From a virus, in IMG/VR virus record IMGVR_UViG_3300035698_004441, positions 1-32,073 of that record: a stretch of DNA of 32,073 bases; one strand, given 5' to 3'. The position numbers and the translations under genes were made by a program. Shown in pieces: positions 7,086 through 32,073 of the stretch; within the stretch, counting starts at the first letter, position 1; each line of letters begins with the position of its first letter. The notes under the pieces were generated by a model. It was not told where the DNA came from, searched no databases, and saw nothing but the letters and a program-made list of their open reading frames with translations.

Positions 7086-9026
7086 ATGGCCGGTATAAAA
7101 CACCTGACAGACATTTACAGAGTACAAGGAAAAGAGTTTATCACAAAACTCTTCGATGGCTTTGTTACAGTCAACGAAAAATTGGACGGAAGTGCATTCT
7201 CAGTCGAGAAGAATTTCGTAACCAAAGAGCTTGAATTTTACAAGAGAAACAACAACGTTCCAATATCATTGGTTGATCGAACATTAGCCAGATTCTATGA
7301 GAAGCCAATCGAACATTTCAATAGTCTACGTATTGAGATAAAAGATAAGATGCCACAAGGCTGGAGATTCGGTTTCGAATACCTTCTATCTGAGCGTCCT
7401 CAAGAGATTGCTTACGATCGAATTCCAAAGAATTCGTTGGTTCTATCTTACATACACGTCAGAAATGGTTCTGGTCAAATTATCAGAACGATCCAAGATA
7501 AAGATGATCTAGACAAATGGGGAGACATTCTCCAGGTTGAACGACCACCAATTATATTTCAAGGTGTTCTTAACGATGAGCAGAAGATTCAGATTATGGA
7601 TTTCCTTGATACACCGAGGACAGAGCTAAATCTTAAATTCAAGACTGAATCTTTTATCAAATACATTATATCGGTTCTTAACCCTAAGTTGAGAAAGACC
7701 TTATTGAATGATGATCTTAGTAAGCCTATTGAAGGTGTTGTGTTTAGATTCGGATCCGTTGATCAAGAAGTTGTATTGGCCAAACTAGTCGATCCTATTT
7801 TTCAGGAACTAGCAAAGCAGAAATTATCAACACCGACCGGTGGTAACGATATTTATCATATCACATTGCTTGACATCATGAATTACTTTGATGGTCTTAA
7901 CCTTAACAAGTTCAAGCCAATGGGTCGTTCATATGATGAGCGTTATATCAATTTCATATCCAAAGCATTTAATGATCTCGTTGCAGATCATGGAGAGGAT
8001 TATGAAGATGTTGATTTCAATGAACCAGAATATCTTAAGAAACCAGAATTCGATTTGAACGCTGAGTTTATTGATGACCAAGTTACCTTGAGTCATATTG
8101 ATCGTGCAGATGGTCTTAAGAAACTATTCAAGATCATGCTTTCAGCTTTCAAGAACAAGCGACGTAAAGTAACTGGAATATTCACAAAGGGTGTCATAGA
8201 ACAGTTCAATCAAACTGTTGATATGATTAACAGACACTTGATGCAAAATTTACGAATCGTAGAAAGTGAAGTTCCATTATTTGGTGACTTCCTAGATCGA
8301 AGAGGTCGAGGTGCAGAAATTGCAGAAACCGAGGAAGAAGATTCGGAAGAGGAAGAACTATATGCTGAAGACGAACCTAAAGACGAACGTGAATTTGATG
8401 CTGAGAAGTTCAGAGAAAAAATGGACAGTCTTGAAGGTGGTGAAGAAAAAGACGAAGGCAAGAAGAAAAGAAAGGCCGGTAAAAAGGTCAATATGATTGT
8501 TGGTCGTTTCCAACCATTCCACAATGGTCACATGGAGATGATCGAAGAGATCTATTCAGTAAACAAGTATCCAGTAATGATTGTTGCGGTTCACCCGGGA
8601 CATAACAAATCTGGTAAGAGTCCATTATCATTAACTACAATGCGAACCATGCTCGAGAATCTTCAACAAGATGGTAATGGTAAGATTTGTGGACACCGTA
8701 TTATCGGTCGTGGATTCATTGGAGACATTATAGAAGCGGTCAGACCAGATTTCGAGCCTGTTCTATGGGGTGTTGGACCAGACAGAATCATTGGTTATCA
8801 GAAACAACTTGAGCATAATTACATGCGAAAGAATGAATTAAATCTTGATGAGCGATTTACTGTTATGGAAACCAAACGATACATGAGTGGTACGGATGTT
8901 CGAGAGAATATCTTCAATGATTCATTCGGTGCATTCAAAGCACAAGTTCCTAAAAGCGTTCAAACCATATTTCCATTACTCCGTAATGACATCTTGAAGT
9001 ATGATCTACCAGCTAAAGAAGAGTAA
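7086..9026 (+). CDS. nucleic-acid ligase fused to NMN adenylyltransferase (NadM/NadR type)
   Basis: Two enzymes are joined in 646 residues. Residues 1 to about 400 hold a covalent nucleotidyltransferase (ligase) domain: motif I EKLDGS with the AMP-accepting Lys32, a motif III-like GWRFGFEYLL, motif IV IEGVVFRFG and a motif V-like LAKLVDP. It is more likely an RNA ligase than a replicative DNA ligase, but this is not certain. An acidic then lysine-rich linker spans about 405-465. From residue 466 follows an NMN adenylyltransferase domain with GRFQPFHNGH (HxGH ATP site) and SGTDVREN (SGTxVR), which makes NAD+ from NMN and ATP. It would complete the NAD+ route begun by the PRPP-synthetase homologue and NadV at 28-32 kb. 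No frame break is visible. Confidence 0.85.
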   Translation: MAGIKHLTDIYRVQGKEFITKLFDGFVTVNEKLDGSAFSVEKNFVTKELEFYKRNNNVPISLVDRTLARFYEKPIEHFNSLRIEIKDKMPQGWRFGFEYLLSERPQEIAYDRIPKNSLVLSYIHVRNGSGQIIRTIQDKDDLDKWGDILQVERPPIIFQGVLNDEQKIQIMDFLDTPRTELNLKFKTESFIKYIISVLNPKLRKTLLNDDLSKPIEGVVFRFGSVDQEVVLAKLVDPIFQELAKQKLSTPTGGNDIYHITLLDIMNYFDGLNLNKFKPMGRSYDERYINFISKAFNDLVADHGEDYEDVDFNEPEYLKKPEFDLNAEFIDDQVTLSHIDRADGLKKLFKIMLSAFKNKRRKVTGIFTKGVIEQFNQTVDMINRHLMQNLRIVESEVPLFGDFLDRRGRGAEIAETEEEDSEEEELYAEDEPKDEREFDAEKFREKMDSLEGGEEKDEGKKKRKAGKKVNMIVGRFQPFHNGHMEMIEEIYSVNKYPVMIVAVHPGHNKSGKSPLSLTTMRTMLENLQQDGNGKICGHRIIGRGFIGDIIEAVRPDFEPVLWGVGPDRIIGYQKQLEHNYMRKNELNLDERFTVMETKRYMSGTDVRENIFNDSFGAFKAQVPKSVQTIFPLLRNDILKYDLPAKEE

Positions 9027-9030
9027 TGAT

Positions 9031-9076
9031 ACCGAAAGAGGAAATTTCATTTATCCTCTAACCGTTCTATTTCGGG
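9031..9076 (+). other. nested inverted repeat, possible terminator or processing hairpin
   Basis: CCGAAA (9032-9037) pairs with TTTCGG (9070-9075), and inside it GAGGA (9038-9042) pairs with TCCTC (9054-9058). There is no T-run, so RNA processing or mRNA 3'-end protection is as likely as termination. Confidence 0.45.
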
Positions 9077-9119
9077 TGTTGTATCAAACTTTCTACCCCA
9101 CTTTAAATATTGATCCTTG

Positions 9120-9212
9120 ATGATTGAAACTCTATTTACACCAGAGATGATCGAGCAACAACCGGATATGGAATTCAATTTCTTAAAATACCTGAAGAAC
9201 AGAGAATTTTAA
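9120..9212 (+). CDS. small protein of unknown function (30 aa)
   Basis: A complete 30-codon frame (MIETLFTPEMIEQQPDMEF... ending KNREF) lies alone in the gap after the ligase fusion. Its composition is normal for this phage, but a frame this short could occur by chance. Confidence 0.4.
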   Translation: MIETLFTPEMIEQQPDMEFNFLKYLKNREF

Positions 9213-9213
9213 C

Positions 9214-9223
9214 GATATATAAG
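9214..9223 (+). promoter_or_regulatory. GATATATAAG motif, putative late promoter
   Basis: It is the same core as at 5690, 12442, 12951 and 27162. It heads the run of capsid-leader genes that starts at 9264, with a 13-codon frame (9226-9267, MKRIKSTKSTKAS) in between. Confidence 0.4.
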
Positions 9224-9225
9224 GT

Positions 9226-9267
9226 ATGAAAAGAATTAAATCTACTAAATCTACTAAAGCATCATGA
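9226..9267 (+). CDS. 13-codon leader-like ORF
   Basis: MKRIKSTKSTKAS ends in a TGA that overlaps the ATG of the next gene (ATGA). It may act only to couple ribosomes to the downstream gene; it may also be chance. Confidence 0.25.
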   Translation: MKRIKSTKSTKAS

Positions 9268-9575
9268 GTAACGTGAAGAAATTTAATGAACTTTTCGAAG
9301 GTCAATATGGTATGGAGAAATTTGATTTGGAATCTTCCAACCGAACTGTAATTGGTGTAGAGTGGAGAACAGGGAGAACAAACATTGGATTTGTTGCTGT
9401 TGCCTTACATGATTCACACGAGTGGACAGTTTATATCTGTGGCGTTCCTGGAAAAGATGAAGTATCTGACGTGAAATTGGTTGCCGATTATGGTACTCGA
9501 TTATCTGAAGAAGAAGGAACAGCATTCTTCCCACATTTGGAAGCACCCGAAAAATATACATACAAAGGACGATGA
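9264..9575 (+). CDS. small protein with capsid-targeting-like leader (103 aa)
   Basis: The first 12 residues, MSNVKKFNELFE|G, have alternating basic and aromatic/leucine residues and an LFE site, like the leader that directs T4 internal proteins into the prohead before gp21 cleavage. The remaining ~90 residues look like a small beta-rich fold (TVIGVEWRTGRTNIGFVAVAL, EWTVYICGVPG). No family was recognised. It overlaps the next gene by ATGA, which has a similar leader. A head-packaged, injected protein is inferred. Confidence 0.7.
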   Translation: MSNVKKFNELFEGQYGMEKFDLESSNRTVIGVEWRTGRTNIGFVAVALHDSHEWTVYICGVPGKDEVSDVKLVADYGTRLSEEEGTAFFPHLEAPEKYTYKGR

Positions 9576-10087
9576 GCAGAATACACGATTTTAAGAACTT
9601 CCTTAATGAGATGAACGGATATGGTGAAGAACCATTCTTTTACATCCAAGATGGAGATCTACATAATTACATGTTCAAGATTGAAGATGGTAAGAACGTA
9701 GAGCGTGGTATGGTTATCTCAATAGGTAACTTCAGTAGGTTTACACAACCCGCCGAAGCTAAGAATGCTTATGGCGTTATCACAATTGTAGAAATGAGTC
9801 CGGAGGCACTGGATCAAGCCGTAGCAGATGAAGGTAAGTTCGAGACTAACGAGTCCCGTATTGATGCCGATGATGCTGCTATGGAGAAGATCATGCACAC
9901 ATTAACAGAAGTCATCAACGATTATCTACAGAAATCACCTAAGGTGAACAAGTTCTATGATGAGATGCAAGCAACGTTACATTCTGCAAATTATGCAGCG
10001 AGCTTTAAAGGATCTACAGAAGAATGGCCAGGAGACTGGAAATTCCAAGAGATTGAAAACGGTAAATTGAATTTAGTATCAAAATGA
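9572..10087 (+). CDS. protein with capsid-targeting-like leader (171 aa)
   Basis: The leader MSRIHDFKNFLNE|M matches the pattern of its neighbours, with an LNE site. The mature part of about 158 residues is acidic, with FFYIQDGDLHNYMFKIEDGK near the start and a helical C-terminal region (AAMEKIMHTLTEVINDYLQK). No known domain was recognised. Both ends overlap neighbours by ATGA, so translation is coupled to the genes at 9264 and 10084. Confidence 0.7.
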   Translation: MSRIHDFKNFLNEMNGYGEEPFFYIQDGDLHNYMFKIEDGKNVERGMVISIGNFSRFTQPAEAKNAYGVITIVEMSPEALDQAVADEGKFETNESRIDADDAAMEKIMHTLTEVINDYLQKSPKVNKFYDEMQATLHSANYAASFKGSTEEWPGDWKFQEIENGKLNLVSK

Positions 10088-10506
10088 AAAACATAAAATT
10101 ATTTGAAGACTTCGACATTAACGAAGGATCATACGAAGACTTCCTTACAAACAATGCTGATGAGATCAAGCAAGCAATTGATGAGATCAAGCAAGCTAGT
10201 GAAAAACTGAAGGACCTTAGTCCAGAGGAATACGAAAAAATTGTGAAAGCTGCTTTTGCCCCACATGAAGATACTTATGATCGTACGATCACAGAATTTG
10301 TAGATTCAAGTTTGGGTAACCCACATGGTATAGATGCAAGAGACATTGCAGATACAGCGATCCGAAATGAAAATCAAACTGGTACAGAAGCCATTATGAT
10401 TCTTGATGCCATCTCAACTATTACAAGTAGCATCATTCACCCTAGAACAGGAACAGGACGACCTAACAGACCAAGAAGAGGTCCGGGTTTCATTCCAACT
10501 AAATAA
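10084..10506 (+). CDS. protein with capsid-targeting-like leader (140 aa)
   Basis: The leader MKNIKLFEDFDINE|G ends in an INE site. Next comes a helical region with a tandem duplication (DEIKQAIDEIKQAS), encoded by near-identical 21-bp repeats at about 10162-10203. The C-terminus is basic and Pro/Gly-rich (GRPNRPRRGPGF), which could bind nucleic acid. T4 internal proteins are likewise small, charged and DNA-associated. Function is unknown. Confidence 0.7.
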   Translation: MKNIKLFEDFDINEGSYEDFLTNNADEIKQAIDEIKQASEKLKDLSPEEYEKIVKAAFAPHEDTYDRTITEFVDSSLGNPHGIDARDIADTAIRNENQTGTEAIMILDAISTITSSIIHPRTGTGRPNRPRRGPGFIPTK

Positions 10507-10510
10507 TATA

Positions 10511-12017: not shown

Positions 12018-12033
12018 CCAGAATTGTAAATAA

Positions 12034-12045
12034 TTCTTATCTTTA
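12034..12045 (+). promoter_or_regulatory. TTCTTATCTTTA promoter-like element
   Basis: It contains TATCTTTA, close to the Bacteroidetes -7 consensus TAnnTTTG. The ATG of the broken ART-like gene follows after 6 nt. Matching elements occur at 15397, 16076, 22287, 24431 and 27751. Confidence 0.6.
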
Positions 12046-12051
12046 CGGGAA

Positions 12052-12450
12052 ATGTACCCGTAACTTTCAAAAGACTTTTTCACGGATCTAAGAGATCGCC
12101 TAATGCTTATCGTAAGCGTGAGGTTATCTATTATACAGATCACCCAGAAGTTGCTGAGACTTATGGTGATGTTTATGTTGTTGGTTCCAGGAAATACTGA
12201 TGGGCTAATTATTGGAAACATCATGGATACTAAGTTTGGTGAAGTTCCGTTACATGTAGATCGTGACTGGCGTGGTTTACCAATATTTGATTTTGAAGAT
12301 CAGGCCGATGAATATTACGACCATCTCGATTACTTCACAAGTACCTTAGTTATTGTTCCAAATATGCATCCAAATATGCATCCATTCAACAAAAATTTCC
12401 ACGTTAGGATAGAAGATGCCGAAACTTTTTCTAAATTTGTTGATATATAA
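12052..12450 (+). pseudogene. frame-broken ADP-ribosyltransferase-like (ART/MuF-type) gene
   Basis: After the promoter-like element the ATG at 12052 hits a stop after three codons. The neighbouring frame then reads clean protein: VTFKRLFHGSKRSP, EVIYYTDHPEVAETYGDVYVV, ending at TGA 12198-12200. A third segment continues in the ATG's frame with PGNTDGLIIGNIMDTKF and a TLVIVPN strand to 12450. Together these resemble small phage ART-type domains: 'FHG', 'Y.TD.PEVA..YG', then 'DG.II.NI.D' and a final strand. One missing C in CCC (12057-12059) and one extra base near 12183-12198 would restore a single ORF of about 132 codons. A 12-bp in-frame duplication (PNMHPNMH) lies near 12358-12381. Confidence 0.5.
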
Positions 12451-12451: not shown

Positions 12452-12465
12452 AGTACAATATTTAT

Positions 12466-12913
12466 GGGGCCGAATGGCATTTGACATACGGTAGTTCATA
12501 TTGAGTAAGCATGTGGTGTCCGCCTTGAGACACGTTAATAAAGAGGGGCAATGCTATAACAGGCAACATTGTTAACAGGGCCGTTGAGGCCACTCTTAAT
12601 GTCGTACGATCTATCGCTCCAGTAGCGATGGGTTATGAAGCTGGAGAGCTTCGCCTAGCGGCCTAAGAGCTGAGGACCGTCGGACCAAGTTCGGCACCTC
12701 GTAGAAAAAAACTCAAAGCCGTCGAGGTCGATACCAACGGGATATAAAACGGAACAGTTCGGAGTATCACATATACTTCGATAGTTGTGGGGCATGAAGC
12801 ATAAGTCCTTGTGATAAATTGTGATAATTTGCAGGTGTAAGAAAAACCTGATAAACATGTAGAAAACCGATTTGATACAGTATTGGACGAGGGTTCGAAA
12901 CCCTCCGGCTCCA
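12466..12913 (+). ncRNA. ssrA: transfer-messenger RNA (tmRNA)
   Basis: tmRNA with SmpB rescues stalled ribosomes and tags the nascent chain for proteolysis. The 5' GGGGCCG (12466-12472) pairs over 7 bp with CGGCTCC (12906-12912), with one G-U pair; A12913 is the discriminator. A canonical T arm GAGGG-TTCGAAA-CCCTC lies at 12889-12905. The 5' part keeps tmRNA-like TTGACATACGG and AAGCATGTGGTG blocks; CATGT can pair with ACATG near 12854. A tag frame runs to TAA 12664-12666, encoding GYEAGELRLAA from 12631, or two codons more (A-M) from 12625. It ends in the typical LAA. The 3' CCA is only partly encoded (ACCG). The length of about 448 nt is above the E. coli 363. Confidence 0.88.
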
Positions 12914-12950
12914 CCGGAGCTGTTTTGTACCTTTTTTCTAAATATATTTC

Positions 12951-12960
12951 GATATATAAA
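12951..12960 (+). promoter_or_regulatory. GATATATAAA motif upstream of GIY-YIG gene
   Basis: The same core as the other late-like motifs lies 15 nt before the ATG at 12976, in the gap between tmRNA and the endonuclease gene. The gap also has a T-rich stretch (12931-12938) that could end the tmRNA transcript. Confidence 0.35.
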
Positions 12961-12975
12961 GAAAAAAGGTATACG

Positions 12976-13572
12976 ATGGCGAGAAAACCCAAAAAATACC
13001 ATTACATTTATAAAACAACTTGTAAAGTAAATGGTAAGTATTATGTAGGAATGCATAGTACAGATAATTTAGATGATGGATATTTAGGTTCGGGTACATA
13101 TCTTTGGCGTGTTATTAACAAATATGGCAAAGAAAACTTTGATGTGGAGATATTAGAATACTTAAATACACGAAATGAATTAAAAGAAAGAGAGGCGGAA
13201 CTAGTCAATGAACAATTTATCGGAGATTTATTATGTATGAATTTGAAACCCGGTGGCTATGGCGGGTTTAATTCTAAAGAACATCAAATTAAGTGTTCAA
13301 CAGCAGGAAATGTTGGTTATGTTAACAAATTAAAAACCGATCCAAACTTTAAGATTAAGGTTAGCGCCAACACATCAAGCAGAAATCGAAAAATGTGGGA
13401 AGATCCAGAATATAGAGAATATATGATGGAACATTGTGGTAACTCAACAACCGGAAAAATTTGCATAAATAATAAAGTGCAAAATAAATTTATCCTACCA
13501 ACAGAGTTAGAAGAAATGGTAAATCTCGGATGGAAACGAGGTAGAAAAACAAAAGAATCAACGAAAAAATGA
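12976..13572 (+). CDS. GIY-YIG homing endonuclease
   Basis: The N-terminus has the GIY-YIG nuclease pattern: YHYIYKTTCKVNGKYYVGMH (residues ~8-27), then GYLGSGTYLWRVINKYGKENF with a catalytic-type Arg. The acidic residue is likely in EAELVNEQF. The middle has GGYGGFN and NUMOD3-like segments, and the C-terminus KICINNKVQNKFILPTELE resembles a DNA-binding NUMOD module. I choose ATG 12976 because the longer frame would start inside the tmRNA. The gene stands free just downstream of the tmRNA, as homing genes often do beside RNA genes. The stop overlaps the next gene (ATGA). Confidence 0.85.
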   Translation: MARKPKKYHYIYKTTCKVNGKYYVGMHSTDNLDDGYLGSGTYLWRVINKYGKENFDVEILEYLNTRNELKEREAELVNEQFIGDLLCMNLKPGGYGGFNSKEHQIKCSTAGNVGYVNKLKTDPNFKIKVSANTSSRNRKMWEDPEYREYMMEHCGNSTTGKICINNKVQNKFILPTELEEMVNLGWKRGRKTKESTKK

Positions 13573-16091: not shown

Positions 16092-16358
16092 ATGAAAGAA
16101 ACAACGCTAGTATCCGCCCCAGTAATTACTCTTAAGAATGTTAAAACTTTTGTTGGCCGTGAAGGTCACGGATTGAATGCAGACGTTTATGTCGATGGTG
16201 TGAAAACCGCATTTTGTCGTGATGATGCTTCAGGTGGCGAAGTTGATTATGATGTTTACAACCTAGAAGACTACGATGGAGTTTTTGAGCTTCACGCAAA
16301 CCACATCAGAGCATTGAGAAATGCTGGAATCACAGTACCAAAAGAATTTGAATCATGA
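16092..16358 (+). CDS. small hypothetical protein (88 aa)
   Basis: MKETTLVSAPVITLKNVKTF starts a beta-rich protein with NADVYVDGVKTAFCRDDASGG, a strand-turn-strand followed by an acidic loop, and a helical end (HANHIRALRNAGITVPKEF). It overlaps the pentapeptide-repeat gene by ATGA, which links the two in expression. No family was recognised. Confidence 0.65.
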   Translation: MKETTLVSAPVITLKNVKTFVGREGHGLNADVYVDGVKTAFCRDDASGGEVDYDVYNLEDYDGVFELHANHIRALRNAGITVPKEFES

Positions 16359-16960
16359 AAACTAAAATCGAAATCAAATCAGTATTCGGAAAAGTACTTT
16401 TCGAGCACGAAACCGAAAACAACACACTATCGAAAACGGTCAGTGAAGCCGTAAAAAGCTCTGCTGACCTTAGCTCTGCTGACCTTAACTATGCTAACCT
16501 TCGCTATGCTGACCTTCGCTCTGCTAACCTTCGCTATGCTAACCTTAGCTCTGCTGACCTTCGCTATGCTAACCTTCGCTATGCTAACCTTAGCTATGCT
16601 AACCTTCGCTATGCTAACCTTAGCTCTGCTGACCTTAGCTCTGCTGACCTTAACTATGCTAACCTTCGCTATGCTAACCTTAGCTCTGCTGACCTTCGCT
16701 ATGCTAACCTTCGCTATGCTAACCTTAGCTCTGCTGACCTTCGCTATGCTAAGACTGACAAGAGGTACATTCAAGTCTCTTGCATTGGCTCATCTAAGCG
16801 TATGACAACCTACTGTTTTGAAGATGATATTGTAACGTGTGGGTGCTTTAAAGGAACACTAGAATCGTTCAAGAAACAGGTTGAGAGCACTCATAAAAAC
16901 AACGACCAGTACTTGAAAGAATACCTAGGACTTATTAACTACCTAAAATCACTAAAATGA
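16355..16960 (+). CDS. pentapeptide-repeat protein
   Basis: Residues 37-131 are nineteen uninterrupted A(D/N)Lxx pentapeptides (ADLSS, ADLNY, ANLRY, ADLRS...), which fold as a right-handed square beta helix. Some family members (Qnr, MfpA) mimic DNA and protect or inhibit gyrase; others have unknown roles. A short N-terminal domain (MKTKIEIKSVFGKVLFEHET) precedes the helix, and the C-terminal ~65 residues (DKRYIQVSCIGSSKRMTTYC...) form a separate part with cysteines. The repeat DNA is nearly identical from unit to unit, so length may vary between strains. A gyrase role is only a possibility. Confidence 0.88.
   Translation: MKTKIEIKSVFGKVLFEHETENNTLSKTVSEAVKSSADLSSADLNYANLRYADLRSANLRYANLSSADLRYANLRYANLSYANLRYANLSSADLSSADLNYANLRYANLSSADLRYANLRYANLSSADLRYAKTDKRYIQVSCIGSSKRMTTYCFEDDIVTCGCFKGTLESFKKQVESTHKNNDQYLKEYLGLINYLKSLK
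16463..16747 (+). repeat. 15-bp coding repeats in the pentapeptide gene
   Basis: Nineteen 15-bp units, mostly variants of CTTAGCTCTGCTGAC and CTTCGCTATGCTAAC, use almost no synonymous variation. This suggests recent expansion or recombination. Other frames stay open across the array, creating spurious ORFs on both strands. Confidence 0.9.
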
Positions 16961-17351: not shown

Positions 17352-17522
17352 ATGAGATGTAAAAAACAACATTTCGCAATTGATAAATTGGAGAACATAT
17401 CACTTTGTGGTATTGAACTCATTGCTACATCGGCAGAATTTGATCTTGATGAAGAAAAACTGATTTCAGTTAATTGTAAGAAATGTATTAAAGAGGCAAA
17501 GAAACATGGCAAAGAGAATTAG
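17352..17522 (+). CDS. small Cys-rich, zinc-ribbon-like protein
   Basis: MRCKKQHFAIDKLENISLCG and SVNCKKCIKEAKKHGKEN provide C-x4-H, C and C-x2-C groupings that could bind a zinc ion. The frame overlaps the start of rtcB by 17 bp. The same frame is open upstream to 17314 (KIYSLNSDEVGG), and the ATG just upstream at 17312 is one base out of frame behind another A5 run. The full gene may therefore start MKKIYSLNSDEVGG. Function is unknown. Confidence 0.5.
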   Translation: MRCKKQHFAIDKLENISLCGIELIATSAEFDLDEEKLISVNCKKCIKEAKKHGKEN

Positions 17523-18933
17523 AGGAAATCACTTATTGGATTTAGGATACCTTCCAGGTAGACCAGTTGGCGTAGCAATCGATGCAACTAAGAAGTTGTT
17601 GAAAAGAAACACAGTTGAGGAAGTCCTAGGTATGCTTAAGGAGGTCCTAGACGATCCCGATGCATTTTTAGAGCATGAATACCTATCTAAGGTAGCGGAA
17701 GCCATTGTAGAAGAGAAACGACCTAGAGTTGATCTACTCAGAGATGAGCCTTTACCATATGCAATCTACGGTCTTGAAGGTATCGAAAAAGGTGCTCGAG
17801 ATCAGATGGATGTTGCTATGTCATTACCTGTTTCTAGGAAAGGTGCTTTGATGCCGGATGCTCACGCTGGATATGGTTTACCAATCGGCGGAGTTCTAGC
17901 ATGTGAGAACGCAATCATTCCTTATGGTGTGGGTGTTGACATTGGATGTAGAATGTGCTTGTCCATATACGATATGGGTGACGATCGATATGTCGAAAGA
18001 AATGTTCAGACCCTTAAGAAGGCTTTGGCCGACAACACAAGGTTCGGTATGATGGGTGTTCACGAAGATCCAGTTGAACATGAAATATTTGATCGACCAA
18101 TCTTTGATGAGATCAATATACTGAAGCAGTTGAAGGATAAGGCCTGGAGACAGATCGGAACTTCTGGTGGAGGTAATCACTTCGTTGAGTTCGGTATGAT
18201 CGAGATACTTGAAGAGTCTGACCTTGGTCTTGCTCCAGGTAACTATGTTGCTGTATTGTCTCACTCAGGCTCAAGAGGTTTTGGTGCTAAGATTGCTGAT
18301 CACTATACCCGAATGGCAAAGAAGTCGAGAACTCTTCCTAGACATGCAGGACACCTTGCATGGTTGGATATGGATTCTGAAGGCGGACAGGAATATTGGA
18401 TTGCCATGAATTTGGCTTTGGATTATGCTTCGGCATGTCACCACGATATTCACAGACGTCTTAAGAAGTATCTTGGTAAGGAGCCTTTGGCGACTGTTGA
18501 GAACCACCACAACTTTGCTGCTAAGGAGATCCACGATGGTGTTGAATATATTGTCCACCGTAAAGGTGCGACTCCAGCATCAGATGGTGAGATGGGAATC
18601 ATTCCAGGAACGATGGCCGACTTTGGTTATCTCGTGAGTGGACTTGGTGATGAAAATTCACTTAGATCTGCATCTCACGGTGCTGGCCGAGCTATGTCGA
18701 GAACTGTTGCCAAAAACACATTCTCTGGTAAGTATGCTAAGGACTACTTAAAAGAGCGAGGAATTACATTACTTGGAGGAGGTGTCGATGAACATCCTGA
18801 AGCATACAAGAAGATCGATGAAGTGATGGCACACCAAACTGATCTTGTTAAACCAATTGGTAGATTTCACCCGAAAGTTGTTCGCATGGCGGACGATGAT
18901 CCTGATGCTAAGAAACCATGGGAGAAGAAATAG
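17506..18933 (+). CDS. rtcB: RNA ligase RtcB
   Basis: RtcB joins RNA 2',3'-cyclic phosphate or 3'-phosphate ends to 5'-OH ends using GTP and Mn2+, and so repairs tRNAs or rRNA cut by ribotoxins. Family signatures are clear: MPDAHAGYGLPIGGVLA, the metal-binding cysteine in VDIGCRM, GTSGGGNHFVEFG, SHSGSRGFG, ENHHNFAA and HRKGATPA. The guanylate-accepting His lies in ASHGAGRAMSR. The length of 475 residues is normal and the frame intact. The start at 17506 overlaps the small Cys-rich gene. In a phage its likely role is to reverse anticodon-nuclease defences. No RtcA or archease was seen here. The C-terminus KKPWEKK overlaps the next gene's start. Confidence 0.95.
   Translation: MAKRIRGNHLLDLGYLPGRPVGVAIDATKKLLKRNTVEEVLGMLKEVLDDPDAFLEHEYLSKVAEAIVEEKRPRVDLLRDEPLPYAIYGLEGIEKGARDQMDVAMSLPVSRKGALMPDAHAGYGLPIGGVLACENAIIPYGVGVDIGCRMCLSIYDMGDDRYVERNVQTLKKALADNTRFGMMGVHEDPVEHEIFDRPIFDEINILKQLKDKAWRQIGTSGGGNHFVEFGMIEILEESDLGLAPGNYVAVLSHSGSRGFGAKIADHYTRMAKKSRTLPRHAGHLAWLDMDSEGGQEYWIAMNLALDYASACHHDIHRRLKKYLGKEPLATVENHHNFAAKEIHDGVEYIVHRKGATPASDGEMGIIPGTMADFGYLVSGLGDENSLRSASHGAGRAMSRTVAKNTFSGKYAKDYLKERGITLLGGGVDEHPEAYKKIDEVMAHQTDLVKPIGRFHPKVVRMADDDPDAKKPWEKK
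18911..18932 (+). repeat. 22-bp direct repeat at a gene junction, copy 1
   Basis: A 22-bp sequence starting AGAAACCATGGGAGAAG recurs exactly at 19051-19072. Each copy encodes the KPWEKK C-terminus of one gene and, in another frame, the MGEEI start of the next. Confidence 0.9.
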
Positions 18934-19723: not shown

Positions 19724-20938
19724 ATGAGAAACTACATGAGAAACATCAGTTGGTATAAGGAATTAGACCCGTATCTTCATATACTGAAGCGGGTTGAAAA
19801 GTGGGTGGGAACATCTAACTTATTGGAGGTGTTGTCTGCTTGGGATCAACCAGAAAGACACTACCATAATCTTGACCATATGATTAAGATGTTTGATCAA
19901 TTTAATGAATGGTTCGATTGGAATACAGATCAGATACCAACAGAAACCCTTCAAACTGGGTTTGATGCTTTGGAAAAACAAGCAGATATTATGGCTTGTG
20001 CAATTGTATATCATGACGCCGTTTATAATCCTTGTGCTGAAGGCAAAGACAACGAACAGCATTCTATAGAATTATGGCAAGAACATGTCAAATTCAGAAA
20101 AGAAGTGATTGTTAAACATTTGAAACAACCAACTGATAATGAACTATTGACGCATAATCTTTCAGTTGCATCTTTAATTGACGCCACAAAAGATCATACG
20201 GATTTAGGAGAACCTGGAACATTACAACGAATATTCATTGAATGGGATCTTAAGAATCTTATTTCATCAGATTTAGGTCAATTGATTAGATCTGAGAATA
20301 AGGTCATGAAGGAATACCAGTTCTATGATTATGATCTATATCGAGTAGGCAAAGTTGCATTACTCGAAACGTTCGTACCAGTTTGTAAAAAACTGAATCC
20401 TGATACTGCGATTGAAGGATTGATTGATTACATTAAAAATAGGGTATTGAACATCGGTGTCTATGCTGGTACGTTCTACCCAATGCATGTAGGACACTAC
20501 AGCATTCTTAAAAGGGCTGAGAAGGTCTTTGATAAAGTCATTGTAGCTTGTGGACATAATCCAACGAAAGATCATGACCTGCTACCATTAGGGGCTCAAA
20601 TAACTTTGAACGAAGTATTGCCTTATCATCAAGTTACAAGTTTCCCTGGATTACTGACAGAGTTTATTGCGTCAAAAAGAAGTGCTAATACAAATGTTAC
20701 CTTAATTAAAGGTCTTGGAAGATACCAAGATTTCGAGGAAGAAAAAATGCAAATGAGATATATGGAAGACTTTGATCCAGAGATCAATGTCGCCTATTTC
20801 ATTTCCGATAGAAAGTTCGATTATGTCTCATCTAGTGGTGCAAGAATAATTGAACAATTTGATGAAACCGCGTATAATAAATACGCGTTAGGGGAGTGGC
20901 CAGACGCAGAGGTCAAAATGAAAAGTGATGTGTCATGA
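19724..20938 (+). CDS. HD-domain phosphohydrolase fused to CoaD-like adenylyltransferase
   Basis: Residues 1 to about 230 resemble metal-dependent HD-superfamily hydrolases: RHYHNLDHMIKMFDQF near residue 47 and the HD pair in AIVYHDAVYNP near residue 97. From residue ~245 comes a nucleotidyltransferase of the HxGH class: GVYAGTFYPMHVGHYSILKR, IKGLGRYQDFEEEKMQ and YVSSSGARIIE. The last two correspond to CoaD (phosphopantetheine adenylyltransferase) blocks 'RGLR...DFEYE.Q' and 'SSSxVRE', so the domain is closer to CoaD than to NMN adenylyltransferase. The pairing suggests a nucleotide or CoA/NAD metabolite is both hydrolysed and adenylylated. A second ATG at 19736 is possible. It overlaps the next gene by ATGA. 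Confidence 0.8.
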   Translation: MRNYMRNISWYKELDPYLHILKRVEKWVGTSNLLEVLSAWDQPERHYHNLDHMIKMFDQFNEWFDWNTDQIPTETLQTGFDALEKQADIMACAIVYHDAVYNPCAEGKDNEQHSIELWQEHVKFRKEVIVKHLKQPTDNELLTHNLSVASLIDATKDHTDLGEPGTLQRIFIEWDLKNLISSDLGQLIRSENKVMKEYQFYDYDLYRVGKVALLETFVPVCKKLNPDTAIEGLIDYIKNRVLNIGVYAGTFYPMHVGHYSILKRAEKVFDKVIVACGHNPTKDHDLLPLGAQITLNEVLPYHQVTSFPGLLTEFIASKRSANTNVTLIKGLGRYQDFEEEKMQMRYMEDFDPEINVAYFISDRKFDYVSSSGARIIEQFDETAYNKYALGEWPDAEVKMKSDVS

Positions 20939-22302: not shown

Positions 22303-22758
22303 ATGGACATAGGAAGAAACAATAAAGGAGTAGCTAGGAGGTTGAGTAATTTCACCGCCCGACCTTTTATATTTGATGGTGTAGAGTGTGCTTCTATGGA
22401 AGGATTGCTACAAGGTTTCAAATTTGAGAACCCTTTAATTCAAGAACATGTCTGTACTCTTGTTGGTATCAAAGCCAAGCGAAGAGGTAGTAAAAGAAAC
22501 AAGGCATGGAAAGGTGGTCAAACACTTTGGTGGAAGGGCAAACCTTACGGTAGAAAATCCAACGAGTATCAAGACTTATTGGATGAAGCATATGAAGCAC
22601 TTGGTACCAACGAGCATTTCAAGAAAGACCTTTTGTCAACAGGCAAAGCGGTTTTCACACATGCCATTGGTAACAACAAGAAATCCGAGACCGTATTGAC
22701 CGAAGCAGAATTCTGTAGAAGACTTACATGGTTACGAATGAAATTCCTTCAAGAATGA
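22303..22758 (+). CDS. NADAR (YbiA-like) family protein
   Basis: The opening LSNFTARPFIFDGVECASME followed by GLLQGFKFEN is the NADAR/YbiA signature ('LSNF...PF..DG..y.s.E...Q..Kf'). The C-terminal helices (EAYEALGTNEHFKKDLLSTG, THAIGNNKKSETVLTEAEF) fit the fold, and 151 residues is a normal length. Some NADAR proteins remove ADP-ribose from modified guanine, acting as antidotes to DarT-type toxins; others cleave N-glycosidic bonds in riboflavin intermediates. In a phage that also encodes NAD+ synthesis genes, reversing ADP-ribosylation of phage DNA is the attractive role. It has its own promoter-like element and overlaps the STAS-like gene. Confidence 0.8.
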   Translation: MDIGRNNKGVARRLSNFTARPFIFDGVECASMEGLLQGFKFENPLIQEHVCTLVGIKAKRRGSKRNKAWKGGQTLWWKGKPYGRKSNEYQDLLDEAYEALGTNEHFKKDLLSTGKAVFTHAIGNNKKSETVLTEAEFCRRLTWLRMKFLQE

Positions 22759-27161: not shown

Positions 27162-27170
27162 GATATATAG
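27162..27170 (+). promoter_or_regulatory. GATATATAG motif, putative late promoter
   Basis: The motif lies 18 nt before ATG 27189. The sequence GGATATATAGAT is shared with the copy at 5689-5700. Confidence 0.4.
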
Positions 27171-27188
27171 ATAAATTAACCTATTGTT

Positions 27189-27721: not shown

Positions 27722-27750
27722 TTCCAAGAAGCACACCCTATTCATTCTTT

Positions 27751-27762
27751 TTCTTATCTTTG
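27751..27762 (+). promoter_or_regulatory. TTCTTATCTTTG promoter-like element
   Basis: Exact TAnnTTTG core preceded by a T-run, 4 nt before ATG 27767. It would drive the UVR-motif, prs-like and nadV genes. Confidence 0.62.
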
Positions 27763-27766
27763 TATC

Positions 27767-28156
27767 ATGATTTTAACGGTCTGGTATACGATAACATATA
27801 GTGCTCTCATAATTTTTGGGTGTGTTATGGTTTTCGGAGTCATGGCTGTTCTGCTTGTTGACTCTCGTAATTCTCGTGTTAAACGACAAACAGAGACACA
27901 ACAAAAAGAGATTCTCCAAGCTCGAAGGCTTGATGCAGAATTACATACATTACGATGGCAAGATACACTTAGACAAGATCTTGAAGCACCAGAAATAATC
28001 AGCAAAGAAGATCTAGATACCAAGCTCAAAAAGTTAGAGTTTTACGATGTAAAGTTAGTGGATGCTCTCGATAAAGAGGATTACGAATCTGCTGCCGTAT
28101 TAAGAGATGAGATTGAGAAATTGAAGCAAGAACTAAATACAGAAAAAGATGCTTAA
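27767..28156 (+). CDS. membrane-anchored protein with a UVR motif
   Basis: The N-terminal membrane helix (residues ~9-31, YSALIIFGCVMVFGVMAVLL) is followed by a basic, then helical cytoplasmic part. The last ~35 residues (KLVDALDKEDYESAAVLRDE, IEKLKQEL) match the UVR motif of UvrB, UvrC and McsA-type proteins, a helical hairpin for protein-protein contact. A membrane-tethered UVR could bind a host repair or protease partner. It overlaps the prs-like gene by 8 bp. Confidence 0.65.
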   Translation: MILTVWYTITYSALIIFGCVMVFGVMAVLLVDSRNSRVKRQTETQQKEILQARRLDAELHTLRWQDTLRQDLEAPEIISKEDLDTKLKKLEFYDVKLVDALDKEDYESAAVLRDEIEKLKQELNTEKDA

Positions 28157-29120
28157 CGAATCGACACTTAGGGTTAACATGGGTGTACTTCCTCCAGCCT
28201 ATTGGGGAAAACAAGAAACAGCTTTAACCTATCAACAAAGTATCTTTCCTGGTGGAGAGGTGTTTGTCAGATTAAACCATCCTGAACAAGTTGATGAAAA
28301 AGATATTATTATCAGTGTTGCTCTTTTAGATTCAGCTGATATATTGAAGCTGATTATGATGGTGAATGCTCTGAGAGCTGCTGGAGCTTCGAAAATCTAT
28401 CTCTATATGCCATACGTTCCTTATGCCCGACAAGATCGAGTATGTACAGAAGGAGAAGCAAATGGTATCCAAGCATTCGGTGACCTGATCAATGATATGA
28501 ACTTTACAAAAGTGTTCGTACTTGATCCACATTCAAACGTTACTGAAACGGCTATCCGAAATATTCGCAGCACTACGAATCATCATTTCGTCCGAAGAGT
28601 TGCCGTTGATCTTTATAGTAAAGGATACAATAAAGAAAACACAATCTTTGTTTCACCAGATGCCGGAGCCAAGAGTAAGATGAAAAATTTGATCTCCTGG
28701 TTATATCCAATTTTTGGTTTCACAAATGTCTTTGGTGATAAGGTCAGAGATCAAGCAACAACAGAAATTCTTTATACATCAGTAGACGATCCTGATGATA
28801 TGATCGCAGGTAAGACTTGTGTTGTCGTGGATGATATTTGTGACGGAGGTCGAACATTCATTGAACTCGCGAAAGTTCTTTTGGAAAAAGGTGCATCTGA
28901 AGTTATACTGATTGTAACCTTTGGAATATTCAGTCAGGGCTTATCTCCATTTAAAGGACTCGTGACTAAGATTTATTCTACAGACGTTTTAAGCAAACCT
29001 GAAAGTATTCCTGGTGTTGAATACTTTCGTATGCCGATCACTATTTTGAAAGATCCAAAAACATGTGATCCAATTCCACCTTCTGCACTTATGCCAGCAG
29101 GAACTATTGGCACACTATAA
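28149..29120 (+). CDS. prs: ribose-phosphate pyrophosphokinase homologue (Prs, or ADP-ribose-acting Adps type)
   Basis: PRPP synthetase adds pyrophosphate from ATP to ribose 5-phosphate. The family signatures are FPGGEVFVRL (residue ~37), YMPYVPYARQDR (~85-96) and the ribose-phosphate loop VVVDDICDGGRTF (~225-237). The length of 323 residues is normal. The stretch DAGAKSKM replaces the usual 'D.GG..RA', a divergence also to be expected in a homologue with another substrate. Next to nadV, it supplies PRPP for NMN synthesis, or as an Adps-type enzyme it would pyrophosphorylate ADP-ribose as in the phage NARP1 pathway. Sequence reading alone cannot separate the two. Confidence 0.85.
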   Translation: MLNESTLRVNMGVLPPAYWGKQETALTYQQSIFPGGEVFVRLNHPEQVDEKDIIISVALLDSADILKLIMMVNALRAAGASKIYLYMPYVPYARQDRVCTEGEANGIQAFGDLINDMNFTKVFVLDPHSNVTETAIRNIRSTTNHHFVRRVAVDLYSKGYNKENTIFVSPDAGAKSKMKNLISWLYPIFGFTNVFGDKVRDQATTEILYTSVDDPDDMIAGKTCVVVDDICDGGRTFIELAKVLLEKGASEVILIVTFGIFSQGLSPFKGLVTKIYSTDVLSKPESIPGVEYFRMPITILKDPKTCDPIPPSALMPAGTIGTL

Positions 29121-29761
29121 TGAATTTCTTTCGTTACATAGCATGTTTGATTGGGTTTCATAAAACCCCTGTTCCAATGTTGATTGAGACAGATTTTGCT
29201 ATTCATAGCAGAGGTTGTCCAGCATGTGGAATAGCATTTGGTTTTGGTGCACTCAAGAAAGTTCCAAAGCCACCAGGTGAAATGACAGATGATTCTTGGA
29301 ATGTTTATCAGCAAGCACATCTTAATGACGTAAGGGCAAAGATTCAAACTGAGATTGATGAAGCAAATAGACCTCCAATTCCAACTACGTTAGATGAAGC
29401 GATCAATACTATCCGTATTCTGAACAAAGAACATATTCCAGCGATCATGGGAATGGACGAAGATACGTTCAGTGCATCAGGTCATTCTTATGCTGGTCGT
29501 TGGATGAGAAATGAATGGTATCTTTGGTGGCAACCAAATCATTCATATGAGACATGGCCTAAAGAAGAACCACCGTTGAATAAATGGTTTACGTCAATAG
29601 GAATAACTCATGCAGATGATCGAAGTGGAATTATCATGACTTGTTTTTATCGTGATGTTTGGGGTCTTGACAGAGATCTCAACGGTCAGATTGAACATTA
29701 TAAAAAGCATTGGAAGAACGCCGGATTTGAAGATGGCATTTACAAAAACGAAACCAAATGA
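29120..29761 (+). CDS. hypothetical protein between prs and nadV (213 aa)
   Basis: Near the N-terminus GCPACGIAFGFG holds a C-x2-C pair. The C-terminal half has TLDEAINTIRILNKEHIPAI, ASGHSYAGRWMRNEWYLWWQ and THADDRSGIIMTCFYRDVWG. This reads like the small 'DUF6794-like' proteins with 'H..GRW.RN.W.LW' and 'GI.H.DD.SGII'; the family name is from memory. It is soluble and Trp-rich. Overlap with prs (1 bp) and the next gene (4 bp) places it in the NAD-synthesis operon, so a metabolic accessory role is possible. Confidence 0.65.
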   Translation: MNFFRYIACLIGFHKTPVPMLIETDFAIHSRGCPACGIAFGFGALKKVPKPPGEMTDDSWNVYQQAHLNDVRAKIQTEIDEANRPPIPTTLDEAINTIRILNKEHIPAIMGMDEDTFSASGHSYAGRWMRNEWYLWWQPNHSYETWPKEEPPLNKWFTSIGITHADDRSGIIMTCFYRDVWGLDRDLNGQIEHYKKHWKNAGFEDGIYKNETK

Positions 29762-29967
29762 GTTTGACACCAAAAAGCGTTGTTACAGAATATTCACCTG
29801 ATGAAGTAAAGAAATTGTTTGCTAAGGAATTAGGTGTTGATCAAAGTGAAATAGATTTGAACTTTGTGATCAATGATACTTCACCTGATCGTCCTGGACA
29901 TTCACCTTCTTATAAGGTGACCGCAATCAAAGTAAGAACAGAACCAAGTAATAAATTCGACATATAA
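29758..29967 (+). CDS. small hypothetical protein (69 aa)
   Basis: MSLTPKSVVTEYSPDEVKKL leads to a small soluble protein with LGVDQSEIDLNFVINDTSPD and a C-terminal strand (PSYKVTAIKVRTE). The ATG overlaps the previous stop. It lies 11 bp before nadV. Small proteins with the same 'I.F.I.D...D....' layout are common in phages. Function is unknown. Confidence 0.6.
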   Translation: MSLTPKSVVTEYSPDEVKKLFAKELGVDQSEIDLNFVINDTSPDRPGHSPSYKVTAIKVRTEPSNKFDI

Positions 29968-29978
29968 ACAATTACATC

Positions 29979-30806
29979 ATGAACTTTTTAGAACTTTATT
30001 GGACAGACGTTTATAAGACAGGACACAAACCAATGCTTCCACCTGGAAGTACATTGATGTTCTCAAACTCAACACCTCGAAGCGGTCGGCTATCGAACGT
30101 TCCTGGATCAGAAGGAATTATCGTTGCCGGTGCTCAGATGATGATGAGGAAATTACAGGATGATTGGTACAACAATTTCTTTATGAGACCAGTGTCTGAG
30201 ATCGAACAATTCGGTAAAGACATCACAGAGATGCTTATGTTGGACAAACCATATGATGTAAGTCATATGATTCAGTTCCATGCATTGGGTTATCTTCCGT
30301 TAGAGGTTCGTGCCATTGAAGAAGGTACATTCCTTCCTTATAAGATTCCAATGACCACGATTGTTAATACTCATCCAATTGATGGGACAATCGTTGATTG
30401 GTTGGTGAACTACCTGGAGTCACCTAATTCTGCTGAATCTTGGTTAACGCCAACTTCTGCCACTACTGCGTTTGCTTACAAGAAGAATGGTATGGCGAAC
30501 ATCAAAAAGACTGACCCAGAGAACATGTGGTTCTTGGATTACAAATACCATGATTTCTCAATGAGAGGAATGGGTGGTAAATCTGCAATTGTAAATTCGG
30601 GTCTTGGTTTTGCAATGGTAAGCAAAGGATCAGATTCACTTCCTGTTATCCCAGCAGCAAGAAAGTATTATGACGAAGATGGGGTTCCGATCTTTTCTGT
30701 TATTGCATCAGAGCACGCTATTATGTGTGCCAATATTGGTGTATTTGGTGAACGTATTAAGCAAGGCCTGGAAGATGTTCTCGTTTCAGAATATAATTCT
30801 TTTTAA
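29979..30806 (+). CDS. nadV: nicotinamide phosphoribosyltransferase NadV, N-terminal part (interrupted gene)
   Basis: NadV converts nicotinamide and PRPP to NMN. This frame holds the N-terminal half: FLELYWTDVYKTGHKPMLPP, then LDYKYHDFSMRGMGG (~residue 190) and the catalytic-His block VIASEHAIMC (~243-250). It then leaves homology and stops (SEYNSF) because an 866-bp insertion begins at about 30795. Joining at the flanking CAGAATAT repeats restores SEY-ATIKKMLNDFPTGIISLV in frame with the part at 31625. The RPDSGDP phosphate-binding block lies only in the second part, so the two pieces must assemble or the insert must be removed for activity. Namat-type homologues use ADP-ribose pyrophosphate instead. 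Confidence 0.87.
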   Translation: MNFLELYWTDVYKTGHKPMLPPGSTLMFSNSTPRSGRLSNVPGSEGIIVAGAQMMMRKLQDDWYNNFFMRPVSEIEQFGKDITEMLMLDKPYDVSHMIQFHALGYLPLEVRAIEEGTFLPYKIPMTTIVNTHPIDGTIVDWLVNYLESPNSAESWLTPTSATTAFAYKKNGMANIKKTDPENMWFLDYKYHDFSMRGMGGKSAIVNSGLGFAMVSKGSDSLPVIPAARKYYDEDGVPIFSVIASEHAIMCANIGVFGERIKQGLEDVLVSEYNSF

Positions 30807-31569
30807 ATTCTACACATGTTTCTTTTTTCCAATCATGTCTGGAGATCATGTGAGAATTGAAATTTCCGCCATCAAGATTTGATTTATTACAATCGGGACA
30901 TATATAACGTTTACGTTTATGTGCTCTTTTACAGCAATCTATTTTTTTACATGCGTTTTTTGCGGATTCACTCATTTTTTCTTTGGTAACATTTGAGTGT
31001 TTATGTCCAAGTGTAGTTGGTGTTGTTTTAAGTTTTTTACCCTTATCACTTTTCCAAAAAATATTATTCTTTTCTAACATATATTTTTGGTATTGTGTTT
31101 CACTCCATTTTTTTAACATTAAATCTTTACGATATTCACGATATTCTTCTGAGGACTGCCATATAGTTGAAGCTTTTGATATTTTATCTTTTGTATCTTG
31201 GCTTAAAATCCTTCCTTTATTATTGTAAGGCAAAGCATTGTTAAAATGGTCAACCTGGTTAATAAAGTCTTTTCTGTTTTTTGCATTTACTTTAGTCAAA
31301 AAATTTACTTCAAATATGCAGGCATCTTGGTAGCAAGAAAATGTTTTGTGTATTATTATTTCAAATGGTAATATATTTTGTTGTAATAAATTTTTTACAC
31401 TTTTGGATGATGTATAATATTTTTTGAAAATATCATCTGTTGGTTTATTATTTAATCGGACATTTCCATATCGGACGCCATAATAGTATTTTACCTTATT
31501 ATTGATTATAAATTTTAATAAATATGTATATGGTGCAATTAAATTGTTGGTTTTATTTATAAGAAACAT
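30757..31569 (-). CDS. GIY-YIG-type homing endonuclease inserted antisense in nadV
   Basis: The 270-residue product begins with a GIY-YIG-like core (YTYLLKFIINNKVKYYYGVR, residues ~14-33; YYTSSKSVKNLL; CIFEVNFLTK). It has NUMOD3-like repeats (SQDTKDKISKAS, KHSNVTKEKMSESAKNA) and a C-terminal zinc finger (ICPDCNKS...HMISRH). The last ~15 residues are read from the antisense of nadV itself, so the original C-terminus probably changed on insertion. Its AT content is much higher than in the flanking nadV, a sign of foreign origin. Its likely target is uninterrupted nadV in related phages. Confidence 0.8.
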   Translation of the reverse strand: MFLINKTNNLIAPYTYLLKFIINNKVKYYYGVRYGNVRLNNKPTDDIFKKYYTSSKSVKNLLQQNILPFEIIIHKTFSCYQDACIFEVNFLTKVNAKNRKDFINQVDHFNNALPYNNKGRILSQDTKDKISKASTIWQSSEEYREYRKDLMLKKWSETQYQKYMLEKNNIFWKSDKGKKLKTTPTTLGHKHSNVTKEKMSESAKNACKKIDCCKRAHKRKRYICPDCNKSNLDGGNFNSHMISRHDWKKETCVEFKKNYILKREHLPGLA

Positions 31570-31660
31570 TGATTTTTATTTTATATATCCATAGATTCCT
31601 TGTATTTTTGTTTAAAATAAAATTATGACTGAAAAAGAAATACAATCTGTTGCAGAATAT
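30795..31660 (-). mobile_element. 866-bp homing-endonuclease insertion in nadV
   Basis: Direct repeats CAGAATAT lie at 30787-30794 and 31653-31660. Deleting one repeat and the DNA between them removes 866 bp and fuses the two nadV frames exactly. Apart from the endonuclease gene only about 90 bp remain, too few for a group I intron core. Confidence 0.75.
31603..31610 (+). promoter_or_regulatory. TATTTTTG promoter-like element before the nadV 3' part
   Basis: A TAnnTTTG match lies 14 nt before ATG 31625, inside the insertion. It could give the downstream nadV piece its own transcript. In such AT-rich DNA a chance match is possible. Confidence 0.35.
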
Positions 31661-32073
31661 GCAACAATTAAAAAAATGCTTAACGATTTTCCAACCGGAA
31701 TTATTTCTTTGGTTTGTGATACCTTTGATCTTTGGCAAGTATTGACAGAATTTTTACCGCGACTCAAAGAAGAGATTCTTGCAAGAGATGGTAAGTTAGT
31801 TATCCGTCCTGATTCAGGTGATCCAGTTGATATTATGTGTGGTGAGATTGAATTTACAGATAAAGAAAGTTACGCATCGTATATCAACTGTGCACAACCA
31901 GATGAAAGAACACCAGCACAAAAAGGTGTTATCGAACTTCTTTGGGACATCTTCGGTGGTGAAATGACATCTACTGGATACAAGCGATTGAATGCTAAGG
32001 TGGGAGCCATTTATGGCGACTCTATCACGATCGATCGTTCAAACCGCATGGATGAGAGGGCAATAGAGAAAGG
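31625..32073 (+). CDS. nadV: nicotinamide phosphoribosyltransferase NadV, C-terminal part (runs off the window)
   Basis: The frame opens with MTEKEIQSVAEY, contributed by the insertion, then joins NadV homology at ATIKKMLNDFPTGIISLVCD. It continues with DTFDLWQVLTEFLPRLKEEI and LVIRPDSGDPVDIMCG (phosphate-binding block, ~residues 59-66), and later GYKRLNAKVGAIYGDSIT. It is still open at the window end. A new start codon, with a promoter-like element upstream, suggests it is made as a separate polypeptide that could complement the N-terminal part. Confidence 0.82.
   Translation, partial: MTEKEIQSVAEYATIKKMLNDFPTGIISLVCDTFDLWQVLTEFLPRLKEEILARDGKLVIRPDSGDPVDIMCGEIEFTDKESYASYINCAQPDERTPAQKGVIELLWDIFGGEMTSTGYKRLNAKVGAIYGDSITIDRSNRMDERAIEK

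Follow-up and report, generated by a model that had tools for sequence, protein, structure and literature searches.

The stretch of viral DNA analysed here, referred to as the window, is the complete IMG/VR record IMGVR_UViG_3300035698_004441 (32,073 bases, classed as linear and possibly fragmentary). Towards its 3′ end, on the plus strand, it carries an Adps-type (Prs-like) gene (28149-29120) and, two open reading frames (ORFs) further on, a nadV gene that lies in two pieces: a Namat-like N-terminal half of 275 aa (29979-30806) and a C-terminal part of at least 149 aa (31625-32073) cut by the contig end. Between the two halves, on the minus strand, is an endonuclease-like ORF of 270 aa (30757-31569), which at its end shares 50 nt with the N half. 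The two plus-strand ORFs separating the Prs-like gene from nadV are a DUF6794 ORF (29120-29761; PF20594, 2.6e-14) and, directly 5′ of nadV, a small frame from the ORF list that has no Pfam match (29758-29967). The original prediction, made from the letters of the window, had named a PRPP (phosphoribosyl pyrophosphate) synthetase homologue at 28149 and NadV at 29979 and 31625 as parts of a set rebuilding nicotinamide adenine dinucleotide (NAD+). Both identifications hold. The first protein matches phrog_619 (1e-70) and passes the ribose-phosphate diphosphokinase model TIGR01251 (136.7 bits for a cut-off of 113), and the two NadV ORFs both match PRK09198 and the structure 9W5X. What had gone without mention is that NadV is split by an antisense ORF and that the contig ends inside it.

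The two NadV ORFs match PRK09198 with 1.7e-43 (N) and 1.5e-36 (C), each under the whole-protein cut-off of 405 bits, and for both the closest solved sequence is the Namat of SPbetaL1, 9W5X (7.4e-44 and 2.4e-32). Each half has its own start codon. In SPbetaL1 numbering, the N half holds D13, Y15, R40, F189, R192, D215 and the catalytic histidine, and the C part R306, D308, G360, D361 and S362, so that all ten core residues (D13, Y15, F189, R192, D215, H245, R306, D308, G360 and D361) are present, spread across the two halves; being common to Nampt, these ten residues point to activity and not to Namat. In our reading of the alignment with the unsplit relative L022 (loci are designated by L numbers), the last residue of the window N half is 275 and the first of the C half 283, therefore about seven residues are absent at the split. 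The structural model of the L022 protein (mean predicted local distance difference test score 89.8) finds the Namat 9W5X as its best structure match (2e-46), followed by HdNadV and human NAMPT, and places the split position after helix 266-273 and before helix 285-303, some 30 residues past the catalytic H246.

The inserted ORF carries a NUMOD3 motif (PF07460, 4.3e-5, over the cut-off). Its assignment to the GIY-YIG endonucleases rests on homology with the ORF of locus L194, which matches the homing endonuclease family phrog_314 (5.4e-8); the window ORF by itself attains neither the GIY-YIG model of Pfam nor any PHROG model, a point against the endonuclease assignment. Eight phage records contain distant matches to this family, some of them annotated as homing or SEG-like endonucleases. 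In IMG/VR a scan of limited reach found the family in the records of L025 and L194 only.

The division of nadV recurs in related phages. Scans of IMG/VR with single proteins (the Prs-like protein, the NadV N half and the protein encoded at 7086) returned no relative; alignment-based scans succeeded, and 158 loci were fetched by their likeness to the N or the C half (two scans, the best 80 of a larger number in each). Both halves are present in 155 of them, the other three having one because of contig ends. After removal of 33 duplicate rows, 122 IMG/VR rows, 16 references and the window (139 rows) entered the tree and the counts. Seven of the 122 other non-redundant IMG/VR nadV genes are divided in this loop as well, a count that is not a population frequency, since the loci were chosen for likeness to the window halves. 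Six of these seven genes are divided by antisense endonuclease ORFs of four kinds. L025 and L194 hold the family found in the window (59% and 55% identical to its ORF), L069 and L100 an HNH plus NUMOD3 endonuclease (55% identical mutually; phrog_655, 1.1e-51, for L100), L202 a different GIY-YIG endonuclease (phrog_314, 1.4e-29), and L221 an endonuclease-VII-like ORF (phrog_1035, 1.3e-17) together with a small sense ORF. In the seventh, L241, the gene is split without any insert, the halves overlapping by 8 nt. With the window counted, the endonuclease ORF is antisense in all seven inserts, which are not seven independent draws because only four endonuclease kinds are concerned, and in six of the seven it ends within the NadV N half (by 23 to 58 nt). 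A Prs-like gene is present in the fetched stretch of all eight split loci, with only 25-31% similarity in the case of L241.

On a quick tree of NadV the split state needs at least seven changes, which could be gains or losses; the tree table also gives one change, held against five Nampt-type rows only. Among the unsplit genes, L022, L087, L217 and L249 have a similarly long loop, and in three of them the motif YYS[FY]D stands at the point where split proteins of the window family terminate. The gene seems to have been split repeatedly among related phages, with neither half lost.

Unsplit alleles exist among the relatives (L022, L026 and L260), and two of them can be compared with split genes of the window's endonuclease family. 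L025 is 93-100% identical to the unsplit L026 (60-base blocks, 5801-6700), then diverges sharply at the loop and has a mosaic C half. L194 is 90-100% identical to the unsplit L260 before the loop; identity drops to 45-76% over the roughly 340 bases that follow the insert and returns to 96-100% beyond. A third sister pair, L221 and L223, is too diverged for a reading of tracts. Such sharp tracts are the expected trace of co-conversion during homing, a reading that sequence comparison supports in these two relatives; ordinary recombination with a split donor could give the same pattern in both. According to the homing model, a free-standing, oppositely oriented endonuclease gene would have invaded the Namat-type gene in the linker that follows the catalytic histidine, and the endonuclease would then home into unsplit nadV alleles, bringing flanking nadV sequence along.

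Does the divided gene still give an enzyme? As the chemistry is described in the literature, and as far as membership can be judged from the present sequences, the Adps-type enzyme would add pyrophosphate to ADP-ribose and the Namat-type enzyme would join the resulting ADP-ribose pyrophosphate product with nicotinamide, giving NAD+ directly; the chains of 275 and at least 149 residues would assemble into an active enzyme via the natural fold. The ten core residues are retained in all eight split genes. Between L069 and L100, both split, the proportions of nonsynonymous differences (pN) are 0.15 (N) and 0.20 (C), and those of synonymous differences (pS) 0.78 and 0.82. When split genes are compared with their unsplit sisters outside the tracts, the ratio of nonsynonymous to synonymous substitution (dN/dS) is 0.05-0.08 in three comparisons. 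The closest precedent comes from phage Aeh1, whose NrdA is split by mobE and fully active (PMC2988022).

The most serious alternative is that the split NadV is dead: on this view enzyme function disappeared after the endonuclease came in, leaving two decaying halves. Several observations go in this direction. The C half of L069 contains two frame changes, which reflect either decay or sequencing error, and the Adps-type gene of the same locus (2508-4232) is interrupted. The window end branch is long (1.86 for a median of 0.33), the split being undatable in its lineage, and two of the splits look recent, therefore open frames may have lacked time to decay. Other points weigh against a functional two-chain enzyme as well, or against parts of the homing scheme. 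The low dN/dS of the sister comparisons is based on 2-6 nonsynonymous changes, with splits apparently recent; the ratio reaches 0.36 for the C half of L025 against L026, converted tract included, and is 0.11 (N) and 0.25 (C) between the window and the highly diverged L025. No ribosome-binding site is present 5′ of the window C half (only 4 of 40 chosen window starts have one), and the endonuclease ORF of L025 is cut early by a TGA. Against a dead gene stand the halves themselves, which are open with intact core residues in the window and in the other split genes, save for the frame changes of L069; the conservation between L069 and L100, although synonymous sites are saturated; and L241, which retains both halves without insert. 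Loss of the enzyme thus appears unlikely, while remaining the rival to be taken most seriously. We consider it probable, on sequence grounds, that the two halves are functional together. For the reading as a whole, namely a NARP1 pair whose Namat-type gene, split by an endonuclease, yields a functional two-chain enzyme, our confidence is lower and only slightly in favour.

This raises the question of which pathway the set belongs to, left open by the original prediction between NARP1 (Adps and Namat) and NARP2 (Nampt and nicotinamide mononucleotide (NMN) adenylyltransferase). For the Prs-like protein the comparison was made on the substrate loop and not on a tree, with E. coli Prs as the one canonical Prs reference. 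The loop of the window protein, DDICDGGRTF, is the same as that of Bas63, while E. coli Prs has DDMIDTGGTL; it occurs in 49 of 72 Prs-like rows, window and references counted. We infer that this Adps loop would decide the substrate of the Prs-fold enzyme. For NadV, Namat has been described as a Nampt-like core plus a clamp made of a loop residue at position 40 and a helix GSX-phi-X-phi-X-phi-TRD at 390-400, the phi positions being mostly aromatic in the Namat consensus (PMC12774641). Fifteen phage references were aligned: the helix is of the GS...[TS]RD type in ten and of the Nampt type in five (phiGrn1, GAP32, phiAS5, SCTP-2 and IME-SM1). A Prs-like gene is present in the fetched stretch of nine of the former ten (PTm1 being the exception) and of none of the latter five, three of which have an annotated neighbour resembling an NMN adenylyltransferase (NMNAT). 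Over the 139 non-redundant rows, 129 combine a TRD-type helix with S, A or T after IYG[DN]; IQGDG stands in the five Nampt-type rows, and the remaining five, window included, are unreadable or variant. No clamp motif can be read in L047, L069, L098, the window and SCTP-2, and that of L218 is GSFSYGYNSRDT.

In the window, NadV position 362 is Ser, where all five Nampt-type references have Gly. Position 40 is Arg in the window and Lys in L021-L027; this residue is weakly diagnostic, since Lys or Arg also occurs there in three of the five Nampt-type references. The nearest IMG/VR relatives, L021-L027, are 60-67% identical to the window over the N half; each of the seven records includes a Prs-like gene, and each NadV has a clamp helix GSYSL.xVTRD, with Tyr at clamp position 3. 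In the quick tree these seven and the window form a clade of their own (support 100), and another branch with support 100 sets the five Nampt-type references apart from the other 134 rows; the tree, built from 139 rows without HdNadV, came with a warning of long branches, and support stays below 80 at 40 of its 136 inner branches. The phylogeny that the original prediction had proposed as a check thus puts the window NadV outside the Nampt-type reference group. Some points go the other way. The window clamp helix falls past the contig end, the DNA stopping about 12 residues before it, and therefore NARP1 is likely and not proven. The clamp of L021-L027 has Leu at position 5 and M, M, F, F, F, H and Y at position 7. 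HdNadV, seen in structure-search alignments only, has IYGDG and a TRD helix without aromatics (GAQTYQRNTRD), so TRD alone is not diagnostic and Ser362 weighs more.

Under NARP2, the Prs-like enzyme would supply PRPP, NadV would make NMN and a NadM-like domain encoded at 7086 would convert it to NAD+. The NadM-like signature of that domain speaks for this route, as do the fact that clamp position 7 is aromatic in some but not all of the nearest relatives and the report that Namat can also use PRPP in vitro (PMC12774641). NARP2 has been reported in schizotequatroviruses (PMC12028318); NadV homology is shared with the window, and an NMNAT-like domain is present in it, but this domain is not adjacent to NadV and the window NadV lies outside the Nampt-type reference group. 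The combination of a Nampt-type NadV with an NMN adenylyltransferase partner was not found in the window, as judged from the tree branch, Ser362 and the NadM-like domain, which is 21 kb distant and far under the curated cut-offs. Arg40, the Adps-type loop and the gene order also disagree with NARP2, which we regard as improbable. The gene pair is, with good confidence from these sequence features, NARP1 (Adps-Namat), the Adps-type neighbour, the Namat-type residues, the tree position and the relatives all leaning this way. As in the NARP1 of SPbetaL1, Bas63, ICP1 and DyoEdafos, the Prs-like gene stands 5′ of the NadV-like gene, and the Bas63-identical loop, the core residues and Ser or Ala at 362 are shared; the NrsAB pair of ICP1 has been described as likely the same system (PMC11559045). 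The window differs in that NadV is in two pieces, two ORFs separate the genes, and its nearest relatives have the clamp variant GSYSL.xVTRD. For a phage to carry genes of these kinds is in itself ordinary: among 50,697 phage records, 1,473 match the Prs-like protein and 1,684-1,933, varying with the query, match NadV.

Two further explanations concern the nature of the insert. It could be a self-splicing intron of an undescribed type whose endonuclease ORF is antisense, NadV being intact after splicing. Phage genes often hold splicing elements, and by eye four split genes miss only a few residues at the junction. Yet Rfam gives no group I or group II intron at the window or at the seven other split loci, loose Rfam searches yielding weak unrelated matches only, and the insert folds at the level of shuffled sequence (z 0.0, 20 shuffles). 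The endonuclease ORF occupies almost the entire insert, the C halves start with their own ATG, and L241 is split without any insert. An intron is thus very improbable. An assembly artefact is hardly credible, even if the contigs are metagenomic and L069 shows frame changes, given that three separate contigs carry homologous endonuclease ORFs at the same site, that four further contigs carry other kinds, and that the frames on both sides are open. That the split is an endonuclease insertion, rather than an intron or an artefact, we hold to be very likely.

The situation resembles Aeh1 nrdA/mobE and other divided genes of T4-like phages (gene 43, topoisomerase): there too, a free-standing endonuclease gene leaves an enzyme encoded by two ORFs (PMC2988022). 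Unlike nrdA, the target here is a NAD-restoring anti-defence enzyme, all seven inserts are antisense, four endonuclease kinds use one loop and one split has no insert. A homing endonuclease also shapes anti-defence genes in the case of SegB (PMC13096335), by segmental amplification there and by insertion into the gene itself here. The nadV of Staphylococcus phage Stab23 likewise has a mobile element beside the catalytic histidine, in that case an in-frame intein within a single ORF of 812 aa, whereas the window nadV forms two ORFs. No split Namat or NadV appeared in the titles or abstracts shown for the open papers searched, to which most subscription papers, the 2024 NARP paper among them, do not belong. 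The NAD set adds one more member to a known system, and its recurrent splitting is a variation on a known theme.

Among the 60 phage records listed of the 1,933 matching NadV, one enlarged match was seen, and it is the Stab23 intein. In that gene (L354, 1477-3915) the annotated intein (Hint) domain lies just before the catalytic histidine. Several Felix O1-like rows among the 60 give a two-piece match of normal total length. The short nadV match of Staphylococcus phage A3R was considered and set aside, being a recorded deletion fusion and not a split. The NadV of staphylococcal phage fRuSau02 is tabulated among the mass-spectrometry proteins of purified phage (PMC5618024). In L069, a LAGLIDADG-like ORF (3493-3789) was noticed by eye in the gap of the Adps-type gene. 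Outside phages, 78 of 80 bacterial loci (L273-L352), eight of them enterobacterial and most, to judge by record titles, from marine Flavobacteriia, show GSFTYQ[YF].TRDT with IYGDS, and 42 of the 80 have a Prs-like loop motif in the fetched stretch; bacterial NARP1, by these motifs, may be common among such marine Flavobacteriia and enterobacteria.

The other NAD genes of the original prediction fared unevenly. The ORF at 7086-9026 (plus strand) encodes a weakly RNA-ligase-like N part (PF09414, 0.0082, below the cut-off; a PDB search gave nothing relevant) and a C-terminal HIGH-type nucleotidyltransferase (PF01467, 4.5e-10). The proposed NMN adenylyltransferase is thus partly borne out, the domain being only NadM-like and a candidate for this activity: PRK01153 (NMN adenylyltransferase), the next-ranked named model, reaches 32.5 of 127 bits, and in the PDB the domain finds NMN adenylyltransferases of archaeal type (1.4e-4 to 1e-2). 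It lies some 21 kb from nadV. NARP1 does not require such an enzyme. The 7086 protein matches 6 of 50,697 phage records, and only LR756500 covers more than 80% of it. A second HIGH-type domain had been omitted from the prediction, in 19724-20938 (plus strand), where a phosphohydrolase-like N part (phrog_19425, 2.9e-16) is joined to a CoaD-like nucleotidyltransferase (TIGR01510, 9.9e-22, 77.6 of 103 bits, below the cut-off); from its matches this domain is probably not an NMN adenylyltransferase.

The NADAR protein at 22303-22758 (plus strand) was correctly recognized, with a match to the gp30.3 type (PF08010, 1e-54, 184.6 bits for a cut-off of 36), gp30.3 being the phage NADAR type (PMC11125620). 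In the same report, T4 gp30.3 acted on guanine-ADP-ribose in vitro and phage NADAR gave cells no protection from DarT1 (PMC11125620). Of the idea that the phage counters both NAD depletion and DNA ADP-ribosylation, the first part has good support, in that homology points to a restoring set for NAD+ in the window, and the second is only putative. The broken gene resembling an ADP-ribosyltransferase (ART), placed at 12052, found no support: in Pfam the open piece 12030-12194 shows no likeness to an ART (best match PF20603, 0.021), it matches nothing in the 50,697 phage records at E 1, and ORF 12103-12450 matches neither Pfam nor PHROGs.

Elsewhere the window contains a gp32-like gene (PF08804, 3.3e-9) and a UvsW-like helicase whose top match is the 462-kb uncultured phage LR756500 (39.7%). 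A transfer-messenger RNA gene lies at 12466-12916, and a GIY-YIG ORF (12883-13572; SegE_GIY-YIG, 1.7e-5) immediately after it. There is also an RtcB-type RNA ligase gene (17506-18933; PF01139, 1.5e-80), and by eye only, pentapeptide-like repeats (A-N/D-L-x-x) in ORF 16355-16960. The motif TTCTTATCTTTR has six exact plus-strand copies (12034, 15397, 16076, 22287, 24431 and 27751), with 7 found for 1.1 expected when one mismatch is permitted; three copies stop four bases 5′ of an ATG (16092, 22303 and 27767). A TAnnTTTG-type promoter is not enriched in the window (22 found for 31.9 expected), therefore we make no claim on transcription of the NadV C half.

NAD+ depletion is a widespread output of bacterial defences, which NARP1 lets phages reverse. 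Taking the evidence together, we put forward tentatively, and with somewhat less confidence than for the single working enzyme of the window, that the two-chain Namat is a working and repeatedly evolved form, that unrelated antisense endonucleases exploit one tolerant linker of nadV, and that they spread by homing with flanking nadV sequence and so reshape NARP1 alleles, L241 being an endonuclease-free form with two overlapping ORFs. Split nadV genes of this kind are easily overlooked or annotated as pseudogenes. If a key NARP1 enzyme is indeed repeatedly split yet kept, the unsplit forms, the split forms with endonuclease and the split forms without it would constitute a natural series, with which the activity of the split enzyme, the use of a tolerant anti-defence site by endonucleases and the spread of anti-defence alleles by homing could be tested.

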